NCBI RefSeq assembly: GCF_029582805.1
Contig: NZ_JAKKUT010000002.1
Coordinates: 310,001-374,000, forward strand
Direction of reading: 5' to 3'
Source: Candidatus Synechococcus calcipolaris G9
Lineage (GTDB): Bacteria; Cyanobacteriota; Cyanobacteriia; Thermosynechococcales; Thermosynechococcaceae
DNA length: 64,000 nucleotides
Positions 1,225-32,136 of this stretch are shown here, piece after piece. A program made the position numbers and the translations under genes. Under the pieces are notes generated by a model that was not told the DNA's origin, did not search any database, and saw only the letters and a list, made by a program, of their open reading frames with translations. Numbering within the stretch: the first letter of the stretch is position 1; each line of letters starts with the position of its first letter.

Positions 1225-2499
1225 TCAACCTCCCTGATGCTCTACGGTATCGGGCATTTGTTGAATGATCTCAATCGTGCGGACGCTGACGGTGCAGACT
1301 CGATCGAGCAGGTCGATAACCTGTTCTTTATAGTCAGCAAATTTGTAGGTATTGAAAAGTTTGGCGATCGTGGGGTCTTTGGGTTTCTTTTCTTTGTATT
1401 GGTCGAGAATCCATTCTAGGGCGGAGCGGTTGCCGAGTTTGTAGTCCCAGGCAATGGGGGGTACGCCGCTGAGTTGGGTGTTCTCGTCTAGGGTAATGGT
1501 GCCGTGGGTTTTGTCGGCTTTGAGTTTTGCTTTGGGGTTGGCTTTGCTGGCGATGTCGTGGCGGGTTAAGCCGTAGGGTTCGATCGCTTCGTAGTTCAGG
1601 TGCAAGTCCATCAAAGCTCTGCCCCAGGTTGCCCATTGATGAAAGTTGGAATAGAAGGGCAGGCGGGGAAATTCGCGTTTGAGGTTGAGTTCGTATTTTG
1701 TGCGGTAGGCGGGATGGTGGAGAACGGCGTAGGTGTAGTGGAAGATGGCTTCTTTGGTGATGGTGGGGTCGCTGTAGTGGGTTTGGAATTGGGTTAAACC
1801 CCAGTCGGTGATGTTGTCGATGCGGTTTCCGTTTTCGTCATAGCGATAGAGGGGAAGGCATTGGGAACCTCCTATGGTAGTCAAATCAGCTATGTAAGAA
1901 CTAGCAAGACACCAAAACGGTATCGCATCACCAGTTTTTAACCAAATTAAAGTATTTTTAGAGTTTGAAGTTCTAAAAATATTTGACATTTGATAGGTTC
2001 TACCATTTAGATGAGAGTCAAAATATATCTTCTTCTTCACAAATGGTCGATACATTCCATTTCTAATACATTCTCTGTCAAATTCTTTTTGTATTCTCCT
2101 TGCCAAACAAGATTCTAGATTTTCATCCCATTTAATTTTTGATTTTCCACTATTACCCTTCTTCAGCGAAGCCTGATAATCATTAAGTAAAAATTTAATC
2201 TTTTCAATTAAATCATCTTCATTCCAGTCATAAGCCCATTCATCTCGCTGCGTTTTAACCCCTGCTGAAAAAAGCTGAAAAACTGCCTCTTGAGATTTAC
2301 CCGCTTTCACCACCTTATCAATCAACGGCAAAAAACTATCAAAATCGTTATCGGTTAAATTAATCCAATTCGTCTTTTTGTCCGGCGTAATGTGGTCAAA
2401 TGGAATCTGCTCAAACCGGGTGCGTTCAAACCAGTCGAGCTTTTCTTCCTTCGTCTGCTCATCCTGCAACGTAAAGTAAAAAATCTTTGCCTTGCTCAT
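1225..2499 (-). CDS. Type ISP-like restriction-modification enzyme, C-terminal half (split gene)
   Basis: 424 residues that carry on the protein interrupted at 3214: the opening KAKIFYF and EEKLDWF follow directly on the last native residues of the upstream half. The region with YRPFVKKKIYFDSHLNGR resembles the C-terminal target-recognition domain of type ISP enzymes. ATG at 2499 overlaps the TGA of the toxin gene (ATGA), so I prefer it to the GTG at 2505; translation is probably coupled. There is no own SD-like site apart from toxin codons. No internal stop or frameshift is seen, so the half may still be made and might pair with the N-terminal half; a dead remnant is the alternative. Confidence 0.8.
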   Translation of the reverse strand: MSKAKIFYFTLQDEQTKEEKLDWFERTRFEQIPFDHITPDKKTNWINLTDNDFDSFLPLIDKVVKAGKSQEAVFQLFSAGVKTQRDEWAYDWNEDDLIEKIKFLLNDYQASLKKGNSGKSKIKWDENLESCLARRIQKEFDRECIRNGMYRPFVKKKIYFDSHLNGRTYQMSNIFRTSNSKNTLIWLKTGDAIPFWCLASSYIADLTTIGGSQCLPLYRYDENGNRIDNITDWGLTQFQTHYSDPTITKEAIFHYTYAVLHHPAYRTKYELNLKREFPRLPFYSNFHQWATWGRALMDLHLNYEAIEPYGLTRHDIASKANPKAKLKADKTHGTITLDENTQLSGVPPIAWDYKLGNRSALEWILDQYKEKKPKDPTIAKLFNTYKFADYKEQVIDLLDRVCTVSVRTIEIIQQMPDTVEHQGG

Positions 2500-2885
2500 G
2501 TCCACACTCGCTGAACTGGATAGAAATCAAACTTTTTATCACGGCTCACAATATCTAGTGAGTAATCCATTGCTTGGGCAACTAAAATGCGATCGAATGG
2601 ATCTCGATGATCTTTGGAAATCGGCAAGTCTAAATAATTTTCTAGATTCTCAATCTCAATTGGGATAATTTCCGCTCTCATGACTGAGATCCGATCCAGC
2701 AGGCTCTTAAAAGAATAATCAAGCTGGAGCTTACCAACATTGATTTTGATAACTATCTCCCAAAGACTTGCCATACTAAAAAACAAGTCTGATTTCGCAT
2801 CTACGATCGCTTTAGCTCTTTGGCTCAAGCTGGGGTTCTTGGATGCGTACCAAAGAACGACATGGGTATCGAGCAGAAACGCCAT
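2496..2885 (-). CDS. PIN-domain toxin (VapC-like) inserted in restriction-modification gene
   Basis: 129-residue PIN-domain ribonuclease of the VapC type. The acidic active-site residues are present: Asp in LLDTHVVLW (residue 6), Glu in SLWEIVIK (about residue 43), Asp in HRDPFDRILVAQA (about residue 96) and Asp in IVSRDKKF (about residue 115). The length is normal and the frame is intact. It starts one base after the antitoxin stop and its stop codon overlaps the start of the methylase C-terminal half. VapC toxins usually cleave tRNA or rRNA; the target here is unknown. The cassette sits between the two halves of a restriction-modification gene. Confidence 0.9.
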   Translation of the reverse strand: MAFLLDTHVVLWYASKNPSLSQRAKAIVDAKSDLFFSMASLWEIVIKINVGKLQLDYSFKSLLDRISVMRAEIIPIEIENLENYLDLPISKDHRDPFDRILVAQAMDYSLDIVSRDKKFDFYPVQRVWT

Positions 2886-2886
2886 G

Positions 2887-3210
2887 TTACATGTAATCCT
2901 TTAAGTCTTCTAGGGGTTCGTCAAAATCATCAGACATCGTGATTTTTCCAGCTAAACTGCCGTAGCCGTACTTCTTTTCAAGAGCTGCTTTCTGTTCAGC
3001 ATCAAGTAGTTCCATCGGCGTATCGAAGTCTTCTGGCAGAGGTAACTTAAATGTGCCTTTCAAAATGCCAGATCGCCGTTTCTTTAACGGTTCTCCTGCC
3101 TGAGCATGGGAGTATTTTTCATTGAGGTACTTGGCATAATGCAGAACCTCTTGCTGAAGAGATTCTGGCATCTGAGTGAGGGTTTCTAAAAGCTCTGCAT
3201 CGACAGTCAT
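2887..3210 (-). CDS. VapB-like antitoxin (DUF2281-like) with two tail motifs
   Basis: 107-residue antitoxin partner of the PIN toxin. The first 40 residues (MPESLQQEVLHYAKYL) look like the DUF2281 helical domain. Two related tail motifs follow: GTFKLPLPEDFDTPMELL at about residue 52 and GKITMSDDFDEPLEDLKDY at about residue 88. Such acidic tails normally occur once, at the C-terminus, where they wrap the toxin, so this protein looks like a fusion or duplication of two tails. The Shine-Dalgarno AGGAGG lies inside the last codons of the upstream methylase half, three bases after whose stop the ATG begins. Confidence 0.8.
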   Translation of the reverse strand: MTVDAELLETLTQMPESLQQEVLHYAKYLNEKYSHAQAGEPLKKRRSGILKGTFKLPLPEDFDTPMELLDAEQKAALEKKYGYGSLAGKITMSDDFDEPLEDLKDYM

Positions 3211-3213
3211 TGA

Positions 3214-4947
3214 TTACGCCTCCTGTGACCTAACTAAAAACATGACAGCAATTCCAGTTTGAATCCCAAACACGTTATTTTTCGTGCCAGAGATTTTAGG
3301 ATTGTTCCTCACATCGGATTGAGTATCGACAATATAAACATAATCAAACTCGCGATCGATACACTTACGAAAGCCATCAAAAGTTTTGGAATCAATAAAC
3401 GATCGATTGGTAATAAAGGCAATAATACCGTTTTGACCGAGGCGATCGCTTGCCCACCGAAAGAAGCGGGTATACATATCGTAAACAACAATCTGGTTCT
3501 GAGCCGTCCCTTCCTTGATGTAGGTTGCCTTAATGGCTTTATCAATCCCTGCATAGAGACGATTGGCATTACGCTGGTTAAAATTTTCCTGGTGAGCGTT
3601 GTAGGGCGGGTTGCCGATGATGACAGAAATGGTTTTCTCATTTTGCTGCTGAATTCGAGCCGTGTTTTGCACACTCATCGCAAAAAGATCAAATTGATGC
3701 CCTGCGGTCGTGCAATGATCCAGCGTATCGACTAAACAAATATTTTTGAATTCTTCATACTTCCCCATCTTTTGCTGATAGGTAAACTCAATATTCAAAT
3801 TAGCAATGTAATAGGGCAAAATCGCTACTTCATTACAGTGAATTTCATGCTTATATTTATGCTCCAGCTTATCCGCTGGCAAATATTCAATTAGCTCCGT
3901 CACATAGGTTCCTGTCCCCGTACAAGGGTCTAAAATTTCTACCCCCGGATCGCTCAGTAACTTGCCAAAGTGCTTATGGGTCAAATAATCCGCACTCTCA
4001 ATCATAAAGCGGACAATTTCATTCGGCGTATAGACAATCCCCAACCGATCCGCCGCCTTGGGGTTATAGGCTTTGTAGAAATTCTCGTAGACCGCCTTGA
4101 GAAACTTCTGCTTTTCGTGGTGATTGGCGATGTTTTCCGAATGGCGACGAATTACCGCATAGTAGTGTTCGATGCTTTTGAGCGTGTTTTTGCGAGTCGC
4201 TCCCGTGAAAAAGGTGTTGATAATCTCCGACAGTTCCCGCGCAATATTGTTTTCCCGGTGAAACTGCGACTCATGGAAAATATTGGTGAAAATATCCTCC
4301 GTGAGAATGTGCTGAATCAACATCTCATGGATATCGAAGATCTCAATTTCTGGGTTAATCGACTGGCGACACACCGCGAGGAAAGTATTGCGGCGTTCCC
4401 TAAATTGGGGATTGCTCGCTTCTTGCTGGGTAATAATATCCCGTAGCGCCACCAGAATATGGGGAATGTCTTCCTTAAATTTGACGATCGCCGCCCGAAA
4501 GTCACGCACTTCAGGACGTTCATAGTCCACAAACGTACTGATTAGCCCATCTAACGCCTCCGCATCCCCCATGGAAACCCGCAACTGCTCTCGACTGTGC
4601 TGAATCAGGACGGCAATTTGAGAATTTTCAAACAGAATGTTTTCGTCTGGATATCCAGCGGCAAACTTATCTTCAATTTTTCGATCCAGATCATGCTCTA
4701 GTCCCTTACACTCCCACCAGCCATGCTCTAGGCGAATGGCATCCTTCACCGTGCCATCCGGGAAAACCGTCGTATTGAACTTGGTCTTAAAGTCCAGTTC
4801 TGGGATCAGCAGATAGTTGCGGGGTTTGCAGTAGTCATTCAGCAACCGCTCAAAGGCATTGCGAATACTGGTTTCCTTCCTGGAACCGCCATAGCGAATG
4901 ATTTTTTCGACCTCCGCCTGGTACTGTGTCACCAGCAATCTGGACAT
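3214..4947 (-). CDS. Type ISP-like restriction-modification enzyme, N-terminal half (nuclease + N6 methylase)
   Basis: 577 residues. An N-terminal nuclease-like region shows a PD-(D/E)XK pattern (Asp in VKDAIRL, then WWECKG). A helical linker follows, then an N6-adenine methylase core with motif I DPCTGTGTYVTEL and motif IV NPPYN. No helicase is seen, so the layout is nuclease-methylase-specificity as in helicase-less ISP or type IIG enzymes. ATG 4947 is chosen because GGGAG lies 8 bases upstream and family-like sequence starts there; the 24 codons further upstream look non-coding. After MFLVR the frame reads SQEA and stops: those codons are the antitoxin Shine-Dalgarno region, so the end is foreign. 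The remainder continues at 2499. Confidence 0.85.
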   Translation of the reverse strand: MSRLLVTQYQAEVEKIIRYGGSRKETSIRNAFERLLNDYCKPRNYLLIPELDFKTKFNTTVFPDGTVKDAIRLEHGWWECKGLEHDLDRKIEDKFAAGYPDENILFENSQIAVLIQHSREQLRVSMGDAEALDGLISTFVDYERPEVRDFRAAIVKFKEDIPHILVALRDIITQQEASNPQFRERRNTFLAVCRQSINPEIEIFDIHEMLIQHILTEDIFTNIFHESQFHRENNIARELSEIINTFFTGATRKNTLKSIEHYYAVIRRHSENIANHHEKQKFLKAVYENFYKAYNPKAADRLGIVYTPNEIVRFMIESADYLTHKHFGKLLSDPGVEILDPCTGTGTYVTELIEYLPADKLEHKYKHEIHCNEVAILPYYIANLNIEFTYQQKMGKYEEFKNICLVDTLDHCTTAGHQFDLFAMSVQNTARIQQQNEKTISVIIGNPPYNAHQENFNQRNANRLYAGIDKAIKATYIKEGTAQNQIVVYDMYTRFFRWASDRLGQNGIIAFITNRSFIDSKTFDGFRKCIDREFDYVYIVDTQSDVRNNPKISGTKNNVFGIQTGIAVMFLVRSQEA

Positions 4948-5110
4948 ACTACAACTCCCGGAGCCATGAAGTCTAGGTAAAGTGAGGACTAGAGCTTTAA
5001 TATTACCCCTTAATCTCAATTCTGACCCATCGACAAGGTTCCGGCTCTAAAACTGGGCAAGATGGTTTGAGTATCTGCCCCCCCCCACCTGTGATGCCGC
5101 AGATAGAAAA

Positions 5111-18412: not shown

Positions 18413-18518
18413 GGCAGCGAGAGATATCCGTGAACCTGAGAATGACCTATTGTGATATGATTTATCGCGAAGTATGGAGCATGGTTTAGAAACTCCATAC
18501 ATCATAAATTTAGGTTTT

Positions 18519-19328
18519 ATGAATATTAAATTTTTATCTCCCCTGCTGGCGATCGCCCTCGCGGTGTCAAGTTTTGGGAATCTTCCTGCCCTCGCCTCTC
18601 GGACAAGGGGACGCTCCCTCAGTGGTGAACGGAGTCTGGGAAATCGAGTCCCTAATACTACTCGTAGTCGCCCAGTCAACATTGATCGTAGTAATATTAA
18701 TCGATCTAACATTAATCGCAGCAATGTTAATCAATCCAATATTAATCGAAGTAACATTAATCGATCTAACATTAATCAAAATATTAACCGCAACAATATC
18801 CGCAATACTAATCTGAGTAATGACATTAACGTCAATCGCAACAATGTCAATTTGCGTAATCGTGTCACTGATGTCAATCCTCGCACGATTCAGCGACCTA
18901 ATAATGTGAATATTGATCGCTCGGTGAATGTCAATCGCTGGAATCGGAATAATATCATCGTTAATCCCCGTGGCGTGAATCGCGGTAATTGGTGGTGGAA
19001 TGGTAGCCGTGCCTGGTATCCTGCCCCTAACTACTGGGGGGGCGGTTTTTGGGGTAATTTAGCCATTGGTGTCACCTCCGCTGCCGTGGCCGGGGCGATC
19101 GCCGGTAGTTTCAGTAATGCCAATTCCAACAATTCCCCTGTTATCGTCGTTAATAGTCCAGGGGGGCAGCTATTTTCCAGTTATGGTTTAGTGCAAACTG
19201 ATTGTGATGGCCCCGTTGTGGTGATTTATGGCCCTTCCAATAGTATGATTTGTGCCGAGCCAACGGCTTCGGTTCCCGCCGGTCTCTATGTCATTGATAC
19301 GGAAACCCTATCTCTTATTCCTATTTAA
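18519..19328 (+). CDS. Exported Asn/Arg-rich pentapeptide-type repeat protein
   Basis: 269 residues from ATG 18519, which opens a clear signal peptide (LLAIALAVSSFG, cleavage after ALA). Residues ~50-85 are tandem five-residue units SNINR/SNVNQ coded by 15-bp DNA units (about 18672-18785), then looser Asn-rich sequence to ~150. A WWW/aromatic patch (GNWWWNGSRAWYP), a Gly/Ala-rich hydrophobic segment (~190-205) and a C-terminal domain with two Cys (QTDCDGPV, SMICAEP) follow. The C-terminal part probably folds by a disulfide outside the cytoplasm. Family not recognised. Confidence 0.7.
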   Translation: MNIKFLSPLLAIALAVSSFGNLPALASRTRGRSLSGERSLGNRVPNTTRSRPVNIDRSNINRSNINRSNVNQSNINRSNINRSNINQNINRNNIRNTNLSNDINVNRNNVNLRNRVTDVNPRTIQRPNNVNIDRSVNVNRWNRNNIIVNPRGVNRGNWWWNGSRAWYPAPNYWGGGFWGNLAIGVTSAAVAGAIAGSFSNANSNNSPVIVVNSPGGQLFSSYGLVQTDCDGPVVVIYGPSNSMICAEPTASVPAGLYVIDTETLSLIPI

Positions 19329-24211: not shown

Positions 24212-25317
24212 CAGCCCTTTGCTCCCCGATATTGCAACTGTCCCCGGGCACTATATTCCCGCACAAATTTAGGACTATCCTGGCAATGGCCGAGGACAAT
24301 CAGGGTATCCCCCACTTCCACAATGGGATTACTGCTGGGGGGCAAGAGGATTCCGTTATGTTTCCGTAGACCGACAATCACAAAGGCTCCCTGGCCCCGT
24401 ACCTCTAGACCCGCTAATCGCCAACCAATGTAGGGATAATTGGGGGTAATGGGTAATTCTTCTAACTGAACATCAATGTGGCCAAGAAGTTGGTTGAGGG
24501 CTTGGCGATCGCCGGTTTGTTCCAGAAAATCAATGCCACTGGGTTGCAGAATCAGATTTGCCATTTGGGTCGCACCAATGCGGGTGGGTAATACCACATG
24601 ATCGGCTCCGGCAAGGCGTAACTTTTCTTCTGTGGCGGGTAGATTGGCCCGCGCTAAAATGAGCAGATTGGCTTTGACATGGCGGGCGGTGAGGGTGATA
24701 AAGACATTCATGGTGTCATTGGGCAGAACCGTAGCCAGGGCGATCGCCCGATCAATGCCCACCATCCGTAAACAGTCTTCTTCCGTGGCACTGCCTAAAT
24801 AGGCCAGGTAGCCCAATTCCTCCGCCAGAATCACCCGTTGACTATCATTATCCAGAATAACAAAGGGGGTTTGGGTTGCCATGAGTTGCTTCGCCATGAC
24901 TTGACCAATCCGGCCAAACCCACAGACAATAACATGCTGATTGAGCTTACTAATATCGCGGGCGGCCCGCTGCACATCTAACAGTCGCTTGATTTCCCCC
25001 TCAGTGAAGATCTGCAAAACCGCACCCACAATATAAATGGCAGAGGATGTTCCCGCCACAATCACAAACATATTGAAGATACGTTGCTCCGGGGAAAGGA
25101 GGGGGTGAACTTCGCCGTAACCCACACCAAAAACGGTGATCACATACATGTAGGCGGCATCGATCGCACTCCAGCCAAAGCCCATGTAACCAAACACCGC
25201 GATCGCCATGGTGGCAATAAATAGGCCAATCCCCACCATTAACCGCTGAAGGGATTTTTTCATCGGCTGGGACTTTTCTAACCCTTGGCGCAGTCGTTCG
25301 CGTTTTTCAACGTCCAT
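24211..25317 (-). CDS. Two-helix potassium channel with RCK domain
   Basis: 368 residues, MthK-like: a first helix (LMVGIGLFIATMAIAVFGYM), pore loop with filter FGVGYGEV, a second helix (FNMFVIVAGTSSAIYIVGAV), then RCK_N (VIVCGFGRIGQVMA) and RCK_C. The filter is GVGYGE instead of the usual TVGYGD. The downstream RCK gene overlaps the stop. The first 14 codons and the upstream 89 bases are duplicated at 25867-25996, beyond the orphan antitoxin. Confidence 0.9.
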   Translation of the reverse strand: MDVEKRERLRQGLEKSQPMKKSLQRLMVGIGLFIATMAIAVFGYMGFGWSAIDAAYMYVITVFGVGYGEVHPLLSPEQRIFNMFVIVAGTSSAIYIVGAVLQIFTEGEIKRLLDVQRAARDISKLNQHVIVCGFGRIGQVMAKQLMATQTPFVILDNDSQRVILAEELGYLAYLGSATEEDCLRMVGIDRAIALATVLPNDTMNVFITLTARHVKANLLILARANLPATEEKLRLAGADHVVLPTRIGATQMANLILQPSGIDFLEQTGDRQALNQLLGHIDVQLEELPITPNYPYIGWRLAGLEVRGQGAFVIVGLRKHNGILLPPSSNPIVEVGDTLIVLGHCQDSPKFVREYSARGQLQYRGAKG

Positions 25318-25406
25318 GGGAATCGTTGCCCCAGCAGAAGGAGAGTGATTTTGACTCTAGCGGGGTCATCCTTGGGGATAATGTATCAAAACATACGAAT
25401 GGAATT
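25277..25406. repeat. 130-bp direct repeat, copy 1
   Basis: Runs from inside codon 14 of the potassium-channel gene through its start and promoter. Copy 2 is at 25867-25996, exactly 590 bases on, with no indel and about nine mismatches. The pair brackets the DUF433 gene and toxin stump. Confidence 0.95.
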
Positions 25407-25572
25407 AAAAATCCCCGTAACATTATTCATTGGTAAAATAGAGACAGATAAAATACCTTCAAGATTTCTCCCCTGCCCCCTACTATTTTCATGCCCTATG
25501 AGAATCTTGATGGATGTACCCATTAATCAGTACTACCATTTTGTTAGAGAGTAAGACGTTGACAGGCACTTT

Positions 25573-25788
25573 ATGAAGTTAGAGCGAATTACATTAAATC
25601 CAAATGTGATGGGTGGGAAGCCTTGTATTCGAGGATTGAGAGTCACTGTGGGTACCATTGTTGGCTTAGTAGCGTCTGGACAGTCTCTTGAAAACATCTT
25701 GATGGCCTATCCATATTTAGAGCGAGATGACATCCTAGCCGTATTAGCCTATGCCGCTTGGCGCGCTGAGGAATACGAAGTTAGCTAA
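25573..25788 (+). CDS. DUF433 antitoxin, orphan
   Basis: 71 residues with the DUF433 helix-turn-helix pattern: ITLNPNVMGGKPCIRGLRVTV, VASGQSLENILMAYPYLERDDI and LAYAAWRAEE. These proteins normally accompany a DUF5615 PIN-like toxin encoded directly downstream. Here only the last 25 codons of such a toxin remain. The gene lies between two 130-bp direct repeats. Confidence 0.9.
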   Translation: MKLERITLNPNVMGGKPCIRGLRVTVGTIVGLVASGQSLENILMAYPYLERDDILAVLAYAAWRAEEYEVS

Positions 25789-25790
25789 AA

Positions 25791-25871
25791 CGATTTGGGG
25801 ATGACTTAAAATCTGGAGCTTTGGTCACGGTGGACATTGAACGAGTAAGAGTCCGCATTCTTGCGATCTAA
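25791..25871 (+). pseudogene. 3' stump of DUF5615 PIN-like toxin
   Basis: In the frame beginning at 25794 the sequence reads FGDDLKSGALVTVDIERVRV and ends RILAI-stop at 25871. This matches the typical end of DUF5615 toxins. No start or N-terminal three quarters (with the catalytic Asp residues) is present: the stump begins six bases after the antitoxin stop, so an internal deletion has removed the active part. The stop codon lies at the edge of repeat copy 2. Confidence 0.75.
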
Positions 25872-25996
25872 CCCTTGGCGCAATCCTTCGCGTTTTTCAA
25901 CGTCCATGGGAATCGTGGCCCCAACAGAAGGAGAGTGATCCTGACTCTAGCGGGGTCATCCGTGGGGATAATGTATCAAAACATACGAATGAAATT
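25867..25996. repeat. 130-bp direct repeat, copy 2
   Basis: Second copy of 25277-25406, about 93% identical by eye. On the minus strand it still contains an ATG and 13 channel codons (MDVEKREGLRQGL), then runs into the toxin stump, so it cannot make a channel. Confidence 0.95.
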
Positions 25997-26087
25997 GGAA
26001 CACACCTTAGGTTTTTATTGGGTATGGCATGAGTTTTTTCTCGCCTAATTTAAGTTAAATAACATCAAATATTTATCCATTCAAAAA

Positions 26088-26173
26088 TTTAGCATGAAAT
26101 CTTTTTTAAGAAAAGCATAAAATTGTTATATTTAGCATGAAATCTTTTTTAAGAAAAGCATAAAATTGTTATA
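26088..26173. repeat. Perfect tandem duplication of a 43-bp unit
   Basis: Two identical 43-bp AT-rich units, 26088-26130 and 26131-26173, each starting TTTAGCATGAAATC. They lie in the 290-base spacer before the NACHT gene, otherwise without a visible gene. Could alter promoter spacing. Confidence 0.95.
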
Positions 26174-26285
26174 TTTTGTAAATTAAGTTACAATGAAAAT
26201 ATACAAAAAACATTAAATATTGGCAAAAATGTTTCAGTATCGTTCTAGGTCTTAATTATGATCTTAATTATGAGTTGTATAGGTT

Positions 26286-28667
26286 ATGGGCAAGCGATCG
26301 CTTCGAGCTTCGGCATCGGGTATTCAACGGGCTAAACGGGCCTTTTTTGTAAAGGGTTGGACCCAGGACAATTTAGCTGGGGAAGTGGCTCTAAAAACCC
26401 GTCAACCTATTTGGCGATTTTTCACTGGAAAACCCGTTGATCGTTATACCTTTATAGAAATTTGCTCTGTCCTAGAGTTAGAATGGCGAGACATTGCAGA
26501 TAATCCCCCGGCAGATTTTCCTGAAACTGGAACCAGTGTTCAGAAGCACTTATTAGAGATGGATGCCCTAGTGGAAAAGGTGCGCTTTCACTATCGGGAA
26601 ACGCTTGAGAGCCAGTGCGGTATCTTGCAACTTCTGGATGTTAATCGTCCGGTCAAAATCGATGACATTTATGTGGATGTCAACATTTTAGAAGAAATCG
26701 TCAGTCTCCAAAACCTTGAGATTTCTGATTTTAATAATATTGATCTTGCCCACTTCGATCGCATTGGTTTAGGAGCCGTTGACCTTAAGCAAATTCCTGG
26801 ACTTCAGGCGGTGGAAACCTATAAAAAACTTAGGGTGTTAGGTAAGCCCGGTGTCGGCAAAACCACCTTCCTAAAATATCTGGCGATTCAGTGTAATCGA
26901 GGTGAGTTTGCTAGGGATCTGGTTCCATTTTTTATATCTCTAAGAGATTTTTGTGAAGAATCAAAACAACAAGAATCAAAACAACAAGAATCAAAACAAC
27001 AAGAATCAAAACAACAAGAATCAAAACAACAAGAATCAAAACAACACAGTAGCTTCAATCTGTTTCACTACATCCATCAGGCATTCATCACCGCCGGTAT
27101 TCCTGAGTTATCGTCCCTAGATACATTATTGCAAAAAGGGCGAGTTCTCTTGTTGCTGGATGGTCTGGATGAAGTTCCTAGTAAAGACATCGCGGCTGTT
27201 GTAAACCAAATCCGCAAATTTGCCAATCGCAATCCTCGCAATCATTTTATTGCTTCTTGTCGGACAGCGGCCCAACAGTTGCAACTCCAAGGCTTTACGG
27301 ATGTAGAAATTGCCCCCTTTACCCAGGCCCAAATTACGATCTTTGCCCAAAAGTGGTTTGTTGCCGTTGCCCAAAAAACATCCCTATTATCGGGTCAGGA
27401 ACAGGCAGAGCAATTTATCGAAAAGTTAGAGCTACCGGACAATTGGCAGTTTCGTCAACTGGTGGTCACTCCCCTATTTTTGCATCTGGCCTGTTGGGTT
27501 TTTCAGGGTCGGAATACCTTTCCGATCAAGCGGACAGATTTTTATAAACAAGGGTTAGATCTCCTCTTGGGAAAATGGGATGCCACAAAAGGGATGGAAC
27601 GGGATACCCTATACCGCGACTTTTTAGTTCCCCAGAAATTAAGGCTCCTCAGTCATTTAGCCGCTATTACCTTTACCCAAGGTCAATTCTTTTTTGAACA
27701 AAGTACGCTGGAAAACTATATTAGCGATTATTTATCCACCACCTCTTACACCGATCTCCAATCCGAAGAACTAGAACTGGCCAGTAAGGCCATTCTCAAG
27801 GCGATCGAGGCCCAACACGGATTTTTAATTGAACGGGCCCGGGGGATTTTTTCCTTTTCCTATCTGGTCTTTCAGGAATATTTTACTGCCCGTAAAATTG
27901 TGGCCAATCATAATCTTCAATCCTTGGATCAGGCCCTAGGGGATTTGGTTAGTCACATTACGGATCCCCACTGGCGAGAAATCTTTCTACTCACCGCATC
28001 AATGCTGCGGAGTGCGGATTCCCTGATTCAACTCATGAAGCAACGAATTGATGCCCTGGTCTCCGAAGATTCCTATCTACAGGAATTTTTAATGTGGGTC
28101 AGCAGAAAATCCCAAACGATCCCCAGATATCCCAAACTAGCCACTACTCGGGCCTTTTATCTAGCTCTGACCCAAGCTCCCCAAATCACCAAGCACTTTA
28201 CCCTTGCCAGTACCTTAGATCAGGGAATTCTCCTGGATGCGGCCCTAGATCATTTAGTCCTGATGCAGGGAGATCGCCTCGATGTAGATGCTGTAGATGC
28301 CTGCAATAGCTCTTTGAAGTCCATTTTAGTCATGATTATCGAGCCTGGATTCGCCAAAGCTCTGGAACAGTTAAGGGAACAATTACCGGTTGATCAAAGC
28401 AGCGATCGCATCAATGAGTGGTGTGATGAATATTATGGCGTTTGGGTAGAACAACTACAGGGGGCGATCGCCAACTATCGCAATATTAGCCATCCCTGGG
28501 AATTTACGACTGATCAGCAACGTATCCTACGAAGCTATTACGACGCAAATCAACTCCTAGTGGATTGCTTAAATAGTCCCTGTGAAATCACCAAAAGCAT
28601 TCGTCAAGATATTGAAGCCACCTTGCTTTTGCCCAAGAAAGAATTAGAAGATCGAGAATGGGAATAG
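26286..28667 (+). CDS. NACHT NTPase (bacterial NLR-like) with N-terminal HTH
   Basis: 793 residues. Residues 1-75 form an HTH-like cyanobacterial domain (RAKRAFFVKGWTQDNLA). The NACHT ATPase follows with Walker A GKPGVGKTTFL (~residue 192), Walker B LLLLDGLDEVP (~290) and sensor-like FIASCRTAA. The C-terminal third is helical (LIQLMKQRIDALVSED), like the NCH2 domain of cyanobacterial NACHT proteins. Related bNACHT proteins act in phage defence. Between Walker A and B lies a repeat of six ESKQQ units. No effector domain is obvious, so the HTH or C-terminus may play that part. Neighbours are an antitoxin remnant and small stress genes. Confidence 0.88.
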   Translation: MGKRSLRASASGIQRAKRAFFVKGWTQDNLAGEVALKTRQPIWRFFTGKPVDRYTFIEICSVLELEWRDIADNPPADFPETGTSVQKHLLEMDALVEKVRFHYRETLESQCGILQLLDVNRPVKIDDIYVDVNILEEIVSLQNLEISDFNNIDLAHFDRIGLGAVDLKQIPGLQAVETYKKLRVLGKPGVGKTTFLKYLAIQCNRGEFARDLVPFFISLRDFCEESKQQESKQQESKQQESKQQESKQQESKQHSSFNLFHYIHQAFITAGIPELSSLDTLLQKGRVLLLLDGLDEVPSKDIAAVVNQIRKFANRNPRNHFIASCRTAAQQLQLQGFTDVEIAPFTQAQITIFAQKWFVAVAQKTSLLSGQEQAEQFIEKLELPDNWQFRQLVVTPLFLHLACWVFQGRNTFPIKRTDFYKQGLDLLLGKWDATKGMERDTLYRDFLVPQKLRLLSHLAAITFTQGQFFFEQSTLENYISDYLSTTSYTDLQSEELELASKAILKAIEAQHGFLIERARGIFSFSYLVFQEYFTARKIVANHNLQSLDQALGDLVSHITDPHWREIFLLTASMLRSADSLIQLMKQRIDALVSEDSYLQEFLMWVSRKSQTIPRYPKLATTRAFYLALTQAPQITKHFTLASTLDQGILLDAALDHLVLMQGDRLDVDAVDACNSSLKSILVMIIEPGFAKALEQLREQLPVDQSSDRINEWCDEYYGVWVEQLQGAIANYRNISHPWEFTTDQQRILRSYYDANQLLVDCLNSPCEITKSIRQDIEATLLLPKKELEDREWE
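26958..27047 (+). repeat. In-frame 15-bp minisatellite in the NACHT gene
   Basis: Six head-to-tail units GAATCAAAACAACAA (last one ending CAC) coding ESKQQ. Five units are identical. Unit length is a multiple of three, so slippage would change protein length but not frame. Confidence 0.97.
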
Positions 28668-28824
28668 AGCATGGACAACAAAATCAAAGCAAAGGACATA
28701 ATCAGTTGCAAAAACTAGACAAATAAAACAAATCAAACAATCAATCCAACCTAAAATATACCTGATTTCAAACAACCCCTTGCTATACTCAAGGAGAAAC
28801 ATTTCAAATAGAGTAAACACTATA

Positions 28825-29547
28825 ATGAATGCCAATGATCCTAAAAATCCGAATCGTACTATCCATCGACAGTATAAGGATTCATCAGGAATTGTTCATA
28901 CAGAATATAAAGATGCCCATGGGAACATTAGAACTGAATATCGGGATGCTCAAGGAGTATTGCACAATGATGACAATGCATTTCTCGATAGTAGCCCTGC
29001 GGAACAGCGACGCATTAATGCCGACAGTAACATCACCAAGACTGTCCTAGTTGGGATCCTTTTTGTCTTTTTTGGCAGCCTCATTGCCGGAACCGTCTAC
29101 TACATGACCCAACGCAATAATCCCCAGTCTGTCACGGTCATGAATGTGCCGGATTATGCAAAGGATGAACCCCAGCCATCTCCCCAAGCCCCCCAATCTA
29201 CGGAGACCAATATCAATATCACCTCTGAACCTAGTTCTTCCCAACCAGCCCAAGCTCCTCAGTCCAGTGAAACCAATGTAACGGTTTTACCTTCGTCCCA
29301 GTCCTCTCCCGAAGCTGCCACCCCCTCTCCAGGGCGATCGGACAGTGACATCAAGGGTGAAATCACCTCTAAGTTTCAAGCTAGCTTGCCGAATAATCGT
29401 CTCAATGTTGCCGTTCAAAATGGCAATGTCACGGTATCAGGGACAGTAGAAAAACCCGAGCAAATGCAACAGATTCAATCTTTGGCCAGCTCTGTTTCAG
29501 GAGTCAAAAATGTCAACGTGAGTGCAGCCACAGTCTCATCATTTTAG
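28825..29547 (+). CDS. Membrane-anchored BON-domain protein
   Basis: 240 residues from ATG 28825 (a longer form from 28780 is possible). The N-terminal ~70 residues hold repeated YKD/YRD motifs (RQYKDSSGIVHTEYKDAHGN, then IRTEYRDAQGVLH). A membrane helix (TVLVGILFVFFGSLIAGTVYY) follows, then a Pro/Ser/Gln-rich spacer and a C-terminal BON domain (SKFQASLPNNRLNV, NVTVSGTVEKPEQ). BON domains bind phospholipid or other envelope parts and are often stress-induced. Confidence 0.8.
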   Translation: MNANDPKNPNRTIHRQYKDSSGIVHTEYKDAHGNIRTEYRDAQGVLHNDDNAFLDSSPAEQRRINADSNITKTVLVGILFVFFGSLIAGTVYYMTQRNNPQSVTVMNVPDYAKDEPQPSPQAPQSTETNINITSEPSSSQPAQAPQSSETNVTVLPSSQSSPEAATPSPGRSDSDIKGEITSKFQASLPNNRLNVAVQNGNVTVSGTVEKPEQMQQIQSLASSVSGVKNVNVSAATVSSF

Positions 29548-29568
29548 CCCCTTGCCCCATAACAACAA

Positions 29569-29724
29569 ATGAGCGGCAGAACAGTTATGTCCAAAGATAA
29601 AAAAGACAATAAAGAGCCGAAGAAAACTAAATCTCCCTCGGATGCTACAAAAAAGGCAAAGAAAGATCCCAAGCGTCATGATGGCCCCGTACAGCGCCTA
29701 TTTGATCATTCCCGTGAAAAATAG
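29569..29724 (+). CDS. Small lysine-rich protein (51 residues)
   Basis: ATG 29569 to TAG 29724. About a third of residues are Lys (KDKKDNKEPKKTKSPSD), with a different C-terminus GPVQRLFDHSREK. Likely disordered and basic, perhaps nucleic-acid binding, but the function is unknown. ATG 29587 is an alternative start. It lies 21 bases after the BON gene and before a terminator, so the two probably form an operon. Coding is inferred from the clean frame and position only. Confidence 0.5.
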   Translation: MSGRTVMSKDKKDNKEPKKTKSPSDATKKAKKDPKRHDGPVQRLFDHSREK

Positions 29725-29840
29725 TTCTCTGGTCTAGGGTGCAAAATAACAGTCATTCTGTTTCCTTCAATCGATCCTCATAATTTATACACGCGGTAGT
29801 CTATTCCTTGGAATGATTACCGTTTCTTCATGGTTGATCT

Positions 29841-29867
29841 GACCCTAGAGTTAGGGTCTTTATTTTT
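29841..29867 (+). terminator. Terminator after BON/Lys-rich genes
   Basis: Hairpin GACCCTA (29841-29847), loop GAGT, TAGGGTC (29852-29858), followed by TTTATTTTT. Ends the 28825-29724 unit. The rest of 29725-30095 shows no convincing gene. Confidence 0.8.
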
Positions 29868-30095
29868 CAGAATTTTCAGGTCACTGGTGATGACAAGACC
29901 AAGGGAGACTGAAGAGGTATCCATTCACCCAATGTTTTATTTAGAACAGCTTATTCAGGATCAAGGGATTACAAATATAACGATTTGCATCAAAATCAAC
30001 CAACTTATACATTTCTTAGCAAATCACTCTGGAAATAAAACATCGATGTATCAAAGTAATACATAGGGTACGTTATTTACCCCTTGGTGATAGTC

Positions 30096-30209
30096 ATGGT
30101 AGTCAAACAAAAACAAAGACACGTAAAAAGCTTTTTAACGACCTTTGTGCTGCTAAGTTGTTTTACTTTCATTTATCTATCCCAAAAATCTGGTAAGCGT
30201 CTCTCTTAA
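30096..30209 (+). CDS. Very small predicted membrane protein (37 residues)
   Basis: ATG 30096 to TAA 30207-30209. A basic N-terminus (VVKQKQRHVKS) precedes one hydrophobic segment FLTTFVLLSCFTFIYL and a basic tail. It ends 28 bases before the CsbD gene. Membrane-topology features are good, but so short a frame could be chance. Confidence 0.4.
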   Translation: MVVKQKQRHVKSFLTTFVLLSCFTFIYLSQKSGKRLS

Positions 30210-30237
30210 ATTCAATCTAATTAAATGGGAATTCATT

Positions 30238-30420
30238 ATGGGTTTGCAAGATCGCGCTAAGGCAACTGCCAAAAATGTCGAAGGTAAAGTCCAAGAGGGT
30301 GTCGGTAATATGACAGGAGACTCAGAGGCTAAAGTAGAGGGCAAGAAAAAGCAGGTCGAAGCTAATATTGGCCATGCAATCGAAGATGTCAAAGATGCCG
30401 TCAAAGACATTATTGATTAA
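30238..30420 (+). CDS. CsbD family stress protein
   Basis: 60 residues of typical CsbD sequence: QDRAKATAKNVEGKVQEGVG, then NMTGDSEAKVEGKKKQ and a helical tail. CsbD-like proteins are general-stress proteins of unknown biochemistry. Small, charged, cytoplasmic. A second, exported CsbD-like gene follows at 30710. Confidence 0.88.
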   Translation: MGLQDRAKATAKNVEGKVQEGVGNMTGDSEAKVEGKKKQVEANIGHAIEDVKDAVKDIID

Positions 30421-30528
30421 TTGAGTGATGGGATTTAGGCAAACGTCATTCAGAGAAATAATTCAAGCATAATGCTTGCATTTTTCTTCTTGTGAACGAT
30501 TAATTTCTTTTTCCTGAACACTCAATGG

Positions 30529-30612
30529 GGCGGCGTATATAAAAACAATGGCATCACGATTTTAACTTTCTTACCGAGTTAAAGGGCCATTGCTTCATAC
30601 ATCTACGCCGCC
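30529..30612. repeat. Nested palindrome between the two csbD-like genes
   Basis: Outer arms GGCGGCGTA (30529-30537) and TACGCCGCC (30604-30612) extend imperfectly inward to CAATGGC (30546-30552) with GCCATTG (30586-30592). The loop contains a second hairpin TTTAACT (30561-30567) with AGTTAAA (30577-30583). There is no T-run on either side, so it is not a standard terminator. Could be a MITE-like element or a structured leader. The rest of 30421-30709 shows nothing else. Confidence 0.7.
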
Positions 30613-30709
30613 AAATCAAAAATTTTCATTCTATTGGTCTATCCAAATCTACCGTTTATTGCCCTACCATTGATTGTTTTGTGTTATTCATTTATTGAAG
30701 GTCAAGAAC

Positions 30710-31036
30710 ATGAATTCATTTCGTCAGGTGAGTGGCTTTTTCATGATGATGGGCCTAGCTATTATGCTGGCAATCACGATCACGTTTAATTTCGGGAATA
30801 CCGATAGCTGGGCCGCAGAATTACCCTTGCAATCTACAGGTTCTTCCATCCAGATTGCAACCCAGAATCAAGCCAGGGCTAACCAAAAAGAACTAGAAGG
30901 CAAAGTGCAAGAAGGGTTTGGTAAAGCCACAAATAATCGCCAGGAGCAGTTGATTGGCAAAAGCAAGCAGGTTGAAAGTCAGGTTCGCAACGCGATCGAA
31001 GATGTCAAAAACAATATTCAAGATGCCATGAATTAA
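30710..31036 (+). CDS. CsbD-like protein with N-terminal export signal
   Basis: 108 residues from ATG 30710. A hydrophobic N-terminal segment (FFMMMGLAIMLAITITFNFG) ending near SWAAE suggests a signal peptide or anchor. The C-terminal half is a CsbD-like domain (KELEGKVQEGFGKATNNRQE, then LIGKSKQVESQV) closely related to the 60-residue protein upstream. A CsbD domain outside the cytoplasm is uncommon. Forty bases downstream begins the lmo0937-like gene. Confidence 0.8.
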   Translation: MNSFRQVSGFFMMMGLAIMLAITITFNFGNTDSWAAELPLQSTGSSIQIATQNQARANQKELEGKVQEGFGKATNNRQEQLIGKSKQVESQVRNAIEDVKNNIQDAMN

Positions 31037-31075
31037 CGTTCCATCCTTTTATTTCAAGTGTAAATGGAGAATACC

Positions 31076-31231
31076 ATGTCAAATCTAGTTTGGACGATTG
31101 TTGTAGTCCTTTTCATTCTTTGGTTGTTAGGTTTTTCGATTAATATTGGCGGCGGCTTGATCCATCTCCTTTTGGTTTTAGTATTGATTGGTATTGTTTA
31201 TAACTTATTTACGGGGCGACGAATAGGATAG
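31076..31231 (+). CDS. lmo0937-family small membrane protein
   Basis: 51 residues: two hydrophobic helices (VWTIVVVLFILWLLGF and LIHLLLVLVLIGIVYNLF) joined by INIGGG, ending in GRRIG. This is the pattern of the lmo0937/DUF5670 family, which is often next to CsbD or BON genes. AATGGAGA precedes the start. Confidence 0.85.
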   Translation: MSNLVWTIVVVLFILWLLGFSINIGGGLIHLLLVLVLIGIVYNLFTGRRIG

Positions 31232-31374
31232 GATCATCTTTTTATCTTTATCTCCATCTCCACTGTTATCAAGAAATGGATCCCTGTGAAAAATTTTTAT
31301 TCCCTCCTTCCCTGTTGATGATTATCTAACTCATGCAATGCCATGTCATTTTTTTTCTCATAATGGTTATGAAA

Positions 31375-31614
31375 ATGTCATACTCTACCACAGATTCAAA
31401 ATCCAAAATGAATTTACCTCGGCAACATTATGACTGCCATGATTGTGGGCAATATTCTATGGAAGATGATCAAACCCAGTACATTCCGCTTGTGATTCGT
31501 CAGCTAGTAGATCGATTTTTAGAAGAACAACTAGCTTTTACTCATATTACTCGTGTTACTGGTGTTCCCGAACCTTGGCTAAAGCAATACATCCATACCT
31601 ATCCAAGTGATTAA
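31375..31614 (+). CDS. IS1 InsA-like helix-turn-helix fragment
   Basis: About 79 residues (start uncertain: ATGs at 31333, 31369, 31375 and 31408). DCHDCGQYS and LAFTHITRVTGVPEPWLKQY match the end of the zinc finger and the helix-turn-helix of IS1-family InsA proteins. The first zinc-finger Cys pair and any InsB DDE frame are missing. It is either a decayed IS1-type element or a free-standing derived DNA-binding protein; no terminal inverted repeats were found. Confidence 0.55.
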   Translation: MSYSTTDSKSKMNLPRQHYDCHDCGQYSMEDDQTQYIPLVIRQLVDRFLEEQLAFTHITRVTGVPEPWLKQYIHTYPSD

Positions 31615-31661
31615 ATTATGGATTGTTTTCAATTTATAAATTTAAAATAGGAATATTCTGA

Positions 31662-32136
31662 TTTCTTGAGTACTTTAATGACAGCAATGAGTTAATGTGG
31701 TATCGCCATACGGGCTGGCAAGATGGTTCGGATCGTTGGGTGAATACCACAGGGATGAAAGTTGGCTCTGACTGGGATTTTGAAAACGTCTTTGTTGGTG
31801 GCAATGGTGTCATCTACGGACTGAAGTCAAATGGTGATTTATATTGGTTCCGCCATGATGGCTGGCAAAATGGTTCCAACCAGTGGGCCAATGGTGGAAA
31901 TGGTATAAAAATCGCCTCTGGCTGGGACGTTAAAACTGCCTTTTCAGACAGCAAGGGCCTGATCTATGGAGTTAAGCCCAATGGTGATTTACATTTATAT
32001 CGTCATATATCATATAGGCTGGCAAGATGGAACCAATCGCTGGGGCAATAATAATGGCGTAAAAATTGGCTCCGGCTGGAACTTCCGCTCTGCCTTTACC
32101 GGCAGTGATGGTACGATTTTCGGCATTCTTCCCTAG
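31662..32136 (+). pseudogene. Tachylectin-like beta-propeller lectin remnant, frameshifted
   Basis: Three repeats of about 45 residues are visible, each with a WYRHTGWQDGS-type start and a GVIYGLKSNGDL-type end, as in tachylectin-2-like sugar-binding propellers. The first repeat begins without a start codon after a stop at 31659. In the third repeat a 7-base insertion near 32010 (ATATCAT) shifts the frame; translation resumes as GWQDGTNRW in the next frame and ends GILP-stop at 32136. Five blades would be normal. Broken at both levels, so called a pseudogene. Confidence 0.7.

Follow-up and report, generated by a model that had tools for sequence, protein, structure and literature searches.

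The NACHT gene and its surroundings

The region described here lies within a 64,000-nucleotide window of the Candidatus Synechococcus calcipolaris G9 genome. An ORF on the forward strand of this window (26286–28667) encodes a 793-residue protein with full-length homologues in many cyanobacteria, and these homologues together with Pfam matches identify it as an HTH-NACHT-NCH2 gene of the XssQ-type STAND class. The NACHT domain (PF05729) covers residues 184–358 with an E-value of 1e-14 and a score of 55.2 bits against a cut-off of 26.7. The NACHT C-terminal helical domain 2, NCH2 (PF22727, E=1.4e-29), covers residues 690–783 (28353–28634, forward strand). Walker A and Walker B were both read directly from the sequence and both are on the forward strand. 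The former, GKPGVGKT (residues 186–193, 26841–26864), is invariant at nearly every position in the homologue alignment, and the latter, LLLLDGLDE (residues 288–296, 27147–27173), aligns with LLLLDGMDE of the homologues. With both Walker motifs intact and the Pfam domain scoring over its cut-off, the protein falls within the NACHT STAND ATPases.

The first 75 residues (26286–26510, forward strand) form an HTH-like region, as judged from conservation within the subfamily and with the transcriptional activator XssQ described below. Across these residues the protein has a mean identity of 73% with the subfamily and is 55% identical to XssQ, and this is the best-conserved region that the window protein has in common with XssQ. 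The conserved pattern is MxKRSLxAS...GWTQ..LA.E..LKTRQPIWRFFTG.PVDR...EIC..L.L.WRDIA. Because the homologues share the N-terminal motif MxKRSLxAS, the start codon at 26286 is supported. No Pfam HTH model matches the N-terminus. Structure modeling gave a pLDDT of 45 for the full-length protein and 63 for the domain model, and a PDB fold search with the structure model returned no significant match.

The next gene downstream (28780–29547, forward strand) encodes a BON-domain protein (PF04972, E=4.4e-14) and is a candidate target of the NACHT protein. It is followed by a CsbD-like gene at 30674, and a second CsbD-like ORF is visible by eye at 30238. A search of Rfam found nothing within positions 25200–31700. 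Upstream, a DUF433 gene (25573–25788) has on either side one copy of a 143-nucleotide direct repeat that is 90% identical (25277–25419 and 25867–26009). This arrangement suggests that an insertion or duplication took place in the interval separating the channel gene from the NACHT gene.

Several other features of the window are worth recording. A Type ISP restriction-modification enzyme occurs in two parts on the reverse strand (1225–5019), with the coupler/methylase at 3214–5019 and the Type_ISP_C specificity portion at 1225–2505. Between them is a toxin-antitoxin-like pair of DUF2281 (2887–3210) and PIN-domain (2496–2885) genes that appears to have been inserted into the Type ISP gene. An imperfect 15/30-bp tandem repeat at 18678–18779 encodes an Asn-rich NINRS-type stretch within the ORF at 18474–19328. 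A tachylectin-like repeat ORF at 31695–32136 is apparently split into overlapping frames (31695–32051 and 31966–32136), and is perhaps a decayed gene.

A six-unit repeat array between the Walker motifs

Between Walker A and Walker B, within the NACHT domain, the gene contains six 15-bp units arranged head to tail (26958–27047, forward strand), as determined by direct reading of the sequence and codons. The first five units are identical copies of GAATCAAAACAACAA. The sixth, GAATCAAAACAACAC, is changed only in its last base, so that CAA becomes CAC and glutamine becomes histidine. The array is in frame and its product, (ESKQQ)5-ESKQH, occupies residues 225–254. Tandem Repeats Finder reports 91 bp at 26956–27046 with a period of 15, 6.1 copies, 100% match and no indels. 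Direct reading and the program therefore both confirm the six near-perfect ESKQQ units of the preliminary description, whereas the label 'length-variable-type' given to them there is an interpretation rather than an observation. As identical tandem units with a length that is a multiple of three, located inside an ORF, they constitute an in-frame coding minisatellite. In the low-confidence structure models a helix extends from residue 220 to 239–243, crossing the initial part of the array, with coil after it.

We found no further perfect tandem array of at least 2.8 copies and at least 36 bp in a 320 kb sample of the same genome. A degenerate pattern covering two units has no other site in the genome and no match in 390 genomes sampled from the class. 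Since a comparable array is missing from the sample and the two-unit pattern is unique, the array exceeds what would be expected by chance. A lone two-unit match in viral contigs (L091) was set aside as a probable chance match. Viral contigs yielded no homologues of the window protein.

Length of the loop across the family

The array is absent from every sequence in the homologue alignments, which include many cyanobacteria. At the corresponding position the subfamily homologues carry one pentapeptide, reading FAEESRxx...FSLF compared with FCEESKQ...FNLF in the window protein. Exactly 23 residues span this stretch in 57 of the 70 aligned sequences, with 18–22 in the others and 0 in one partial sequence, compared with 48 in the protein with the array. 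As a second measure of length, a 165-residue segment of a homologue was searched against the 390 genomes of the class. The net indel is zero in 93 of the 106 strongest (subfamily) matches and lies between -4 and +1 in the other 13; among the 150 matches listed it ranges from -6 to +9. These values do not support the earlier proposal of a length-variable loop: in the sequences compared, the family shows no variable-length site in the connection joining the two Walker motifs. Arrays of differing length at this site in related species were likewise absent, both from all aligned homologues and from the 390 genomes.

Across this region the window protein is exactly 25 residues longer than the family, and in the BLAST alignment XssQ lacks 25 residues precisely where the array lies. 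If the six units are cut to one, the family length is obtained, and for this reason the five added copies can be traced to one ancestral pentapeptide. Judged from these alignments, the array is a single pre-existing unit that has been multiplied, and not a foreign insertion.

Relationship to XssQ

A full-length relative turned up in a protein search of plasmid records; it is carried by pSYSM of Synechocystis PCC 6803 (34% identity, 99% coverage) and is encoded between a sugar transferase gene and two response-regulator genes. Based on its position, domain order and HTH, this relative is probably XssQ (probably slr5058; MYO_RS16825). The synechan cluster comprises sll5042-60, and the place of XssQ within it matches the location of the pSYSM relative (PMC8205485). 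XssQ is an HTH-STAND transcriptional activator of the synechan genes in Synechocystis sp. PCC 6803, with a described N-terminal HTH; null mutants lose the polysaccharide, target gene expression falls by qPCR, and purified XssQ shifts DNA in EMSA (PMC8205485). Its DNA consensus, AAGTTXXAC (AAGTTNNAC), occurs singly or in tandem (PMC8205485).

The window protein has the same HTH-like N-terminus, NACHT domain and NCH2 domain in the same order over its full length. The N-terminus conserved with XssQ, followed by NACHT and a C-terminal NCH2, places it with the XssQ-type HTH-STAND proteins. In addition, both proteins are associated with an AT-rich 9-bp site that can be tandem, AAGTTNNAC for XssQ and the candidate AAATCAAAC for the window protein. 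However, XssQ has no array and belongs to a remote paralogue clade at a tree distance of 2.9. We considered and rejected the possibility that the window gene is an XssQ orthologue proper, and hence a synechan regulator. It has neither adjacent XssR/XssS genes nor a sulfated exopolysaccharide cluster, and its neighbours encode channel/TrkA-type, DUF433, BON and CsbD proteins.

The only sequence match with a solved structure is NLRC4 (PDB 8fvu/8fw2), which aligns with NACHT residues 184–419 of the profile (E=7.5e-4). NLRC4 is remote, has no HTH, and has a short connection where the window protein has the array. The animal immune switches are related to the window gene, yet the known transcription regulator XssQ resembles it more. 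The window protein is most likely a transcription activator that, judging from its sequence and that of its surroundings, would recognise direct repeats of 9 bp close to the gene encoding it and to stress genes, the neighbouring BON gene among them.

A candidate operator

The heptamer TCAAACA is present in 25 of 41 distinct orthologue promoters, where 4.4 would be expected and none of 100 dinucleotide shuffles gave more than 10; the promoters of close relatives in this count are not independent of one another. Extended, the motif reads AAATCAAACA, which has AA.T...AC in common with the XssQ site AAGTTNNAC. It is found upstream of L004, L006, L007, L009, L013, L031, L033, L035, L051, L056 and other orthologues, often near -155 or -58 relative to the start codon, and in L009 and L013 it is tandem with a 9-bp spacing. 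The genome studied here contains 27 occurrences of AAATCAAACA versus 5 of the pattern read backwards. The motif was not found in the promoter of the window NACHT gene itself. The best tandem match in the genome, with 1 mismatch, is formed by the 9-mers AAATAAAAC and AAATCAAAC (28721–28738, forward strand), and we regard it as a candidate operator. It is located just 3' of the NACHT gene and ahead of the BON gene, a comparison that is partly post hoc.

Looser matches to the motif total no more than the control. The XssQ site AAGTTNNAC has 4 matches in the window, which is below the chance expectation, and is absent from the gaps that flank the gene. No 9-mers are common to the gaps of the window gene cluster. 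A further sequence, CGATCGC, is also enriched in the orthologue upstream regions; we take it to be the cyanobacterial HIP1-type octamer.

The neighbours of the orthologues include CsbD (L032, L034), fatty-acid hydroxylase or desaturase (L031, L032, L033), TMEM175 together with holin-4 superfamily proteins (L036), and fasciclin together with a universal stress protein (L038).

Origin of the array

We consider it probable that the array is a recent expansion from one copy to six, confined to one lineage, in an XssQ-type regulator that tolerates it, with no role in tuning. A single 15-bp coding stretch would have been copied until six were present, adding 25 residues, through replication slippage or unequal recombination. 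The near-perfect identity of the units and their absence from all homologues point to recent growth by one of these routes, in keeping with the slippage suggested in the preliminary description. The expansion is likely recent, as read from unit identity and absence in relatives with one genome representing the genus.

Within the NACHT ATPase, the array sits on the connection leading on from the strand behind Walker A, where it is probably exposed to solvent, and it probably forms a polar, partly helical arm that is presumably neutral. In this explanation the function as a regulator and the operator are both putative. With a root-to-tip z of about 3.7, the gene is evolving more rapidly than its relatives, and in the AT-rich DNA upstream of it Tandem Repeats Finder identified a perfect tandem duplication of 43 bp (26087–26172), a second recent duplication at the locus. 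Both observations fit reduced constraint, or a locus where duplications have recently occurred. The open frame and the intact Walker motifs have been kept, so the insert may have a function.

The array is of an ordinary kind, a coding minisatellite, in an uncommon place. Bacterial coding minisatellites such as the Bacillus stress-protein repeats (PMC8161180) also consist of in-frame, near-identical units with a patchy distribution among lineages. However, the Bacillus repeats are within a repeat protein (PMC8161180), while the array described here is inside an otherwise length-constant ATPase core.

Alternative interpretations

The array could be a contingency locus, in which units are gained and lost rapidly, the length of the arm determines how active the STAND switch is, and heritable diversity in target expression results. 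Perfect 15-bp in-frame repeats are of the slippage-prone type, an insert in the ATPase domain could influence how nucleotides are exchanged or how oligomer contacts are made, and the helix predicted by the domain model (residues 220–243) would span most of the array. However, no homologue with an array is found in the alignments or in the 390 genomes of the class, and a change by whole units preserves the frame and so provides no on/off switch. We therefore consider this unlikely. It is more doubtful that the array acts as a rheostat, with slippage of 15 bp changing the NACHT arm in steps of five residues and shifting the activation threshold of the XssQ-type regulator. If true, there would be heritable diversity in a stress regulon.

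The preliminary description proposed an immune sensor, that is, an anti-phage NACHT protein with a loop length tuned by slippage of the repeat. Consistent with this are the NACHT domain itself, a weak PADLOC match to the candidate defence family PDC-S60 (residues 254–544, E=4e-9), and a weak match to antiphage_EruA that is below the cut-off. However, the N-terminus is a conserved XssQ-like HTH in place of an effector, of the homologues found, the best characterised acts as a transcription activator, and the genes nearby are associated with stress and lipids, with no defence genes among the neighbours examined of the window gene or its orthologues. Similarly, the bNACHT anti-phage proteins (e.g. 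bNACHT25, PMC12169576) share the NACHT ATPase module, but the window protein has no nuclease or other effector domain and no defence neighbourhood, and it ends in NCH2 where they have NCH1 or SNaCT. This reading is not borne out and we regard it as very improbable.

An assembly or sequencing artefact, with a different real number of units, is scarcely to be expected. Repeat arrays are typically prone to assembly error, but a typical short read is longer than the 91 bp of this one, which stands on a contig of 1.94 Mb in a genome that is 99.97% complete in 8 contigs, and the reading frame is preserved. Finally, we reject the suggestion that the array acts as DNA, providing six binding sites for its own protein or another factor, as highly implausible: the unit holds AATCAAA, part of the orthologue promoter motif, but GAATCAAAA is two mismatches from AAATCAAAC, including the highly conserved first A (100%) and final C (94%), and the array has a period of 15 compared with 9 for the motif.

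Implications

The array provides a natural 25-residue insertion at a position of near-constant length in a STAND ATPase, and lets one ask what this connection tolerates. The comparison with XssQ reassigns the NACHT protein to the cyanobacterial HTH-STAND transcription regulators, away from demonstrated phage sensors. The motif AAATCAAACA is in turn a candidate operator for a widespread and mostly uncharacterised subfamily of cyanobacterial regulators.
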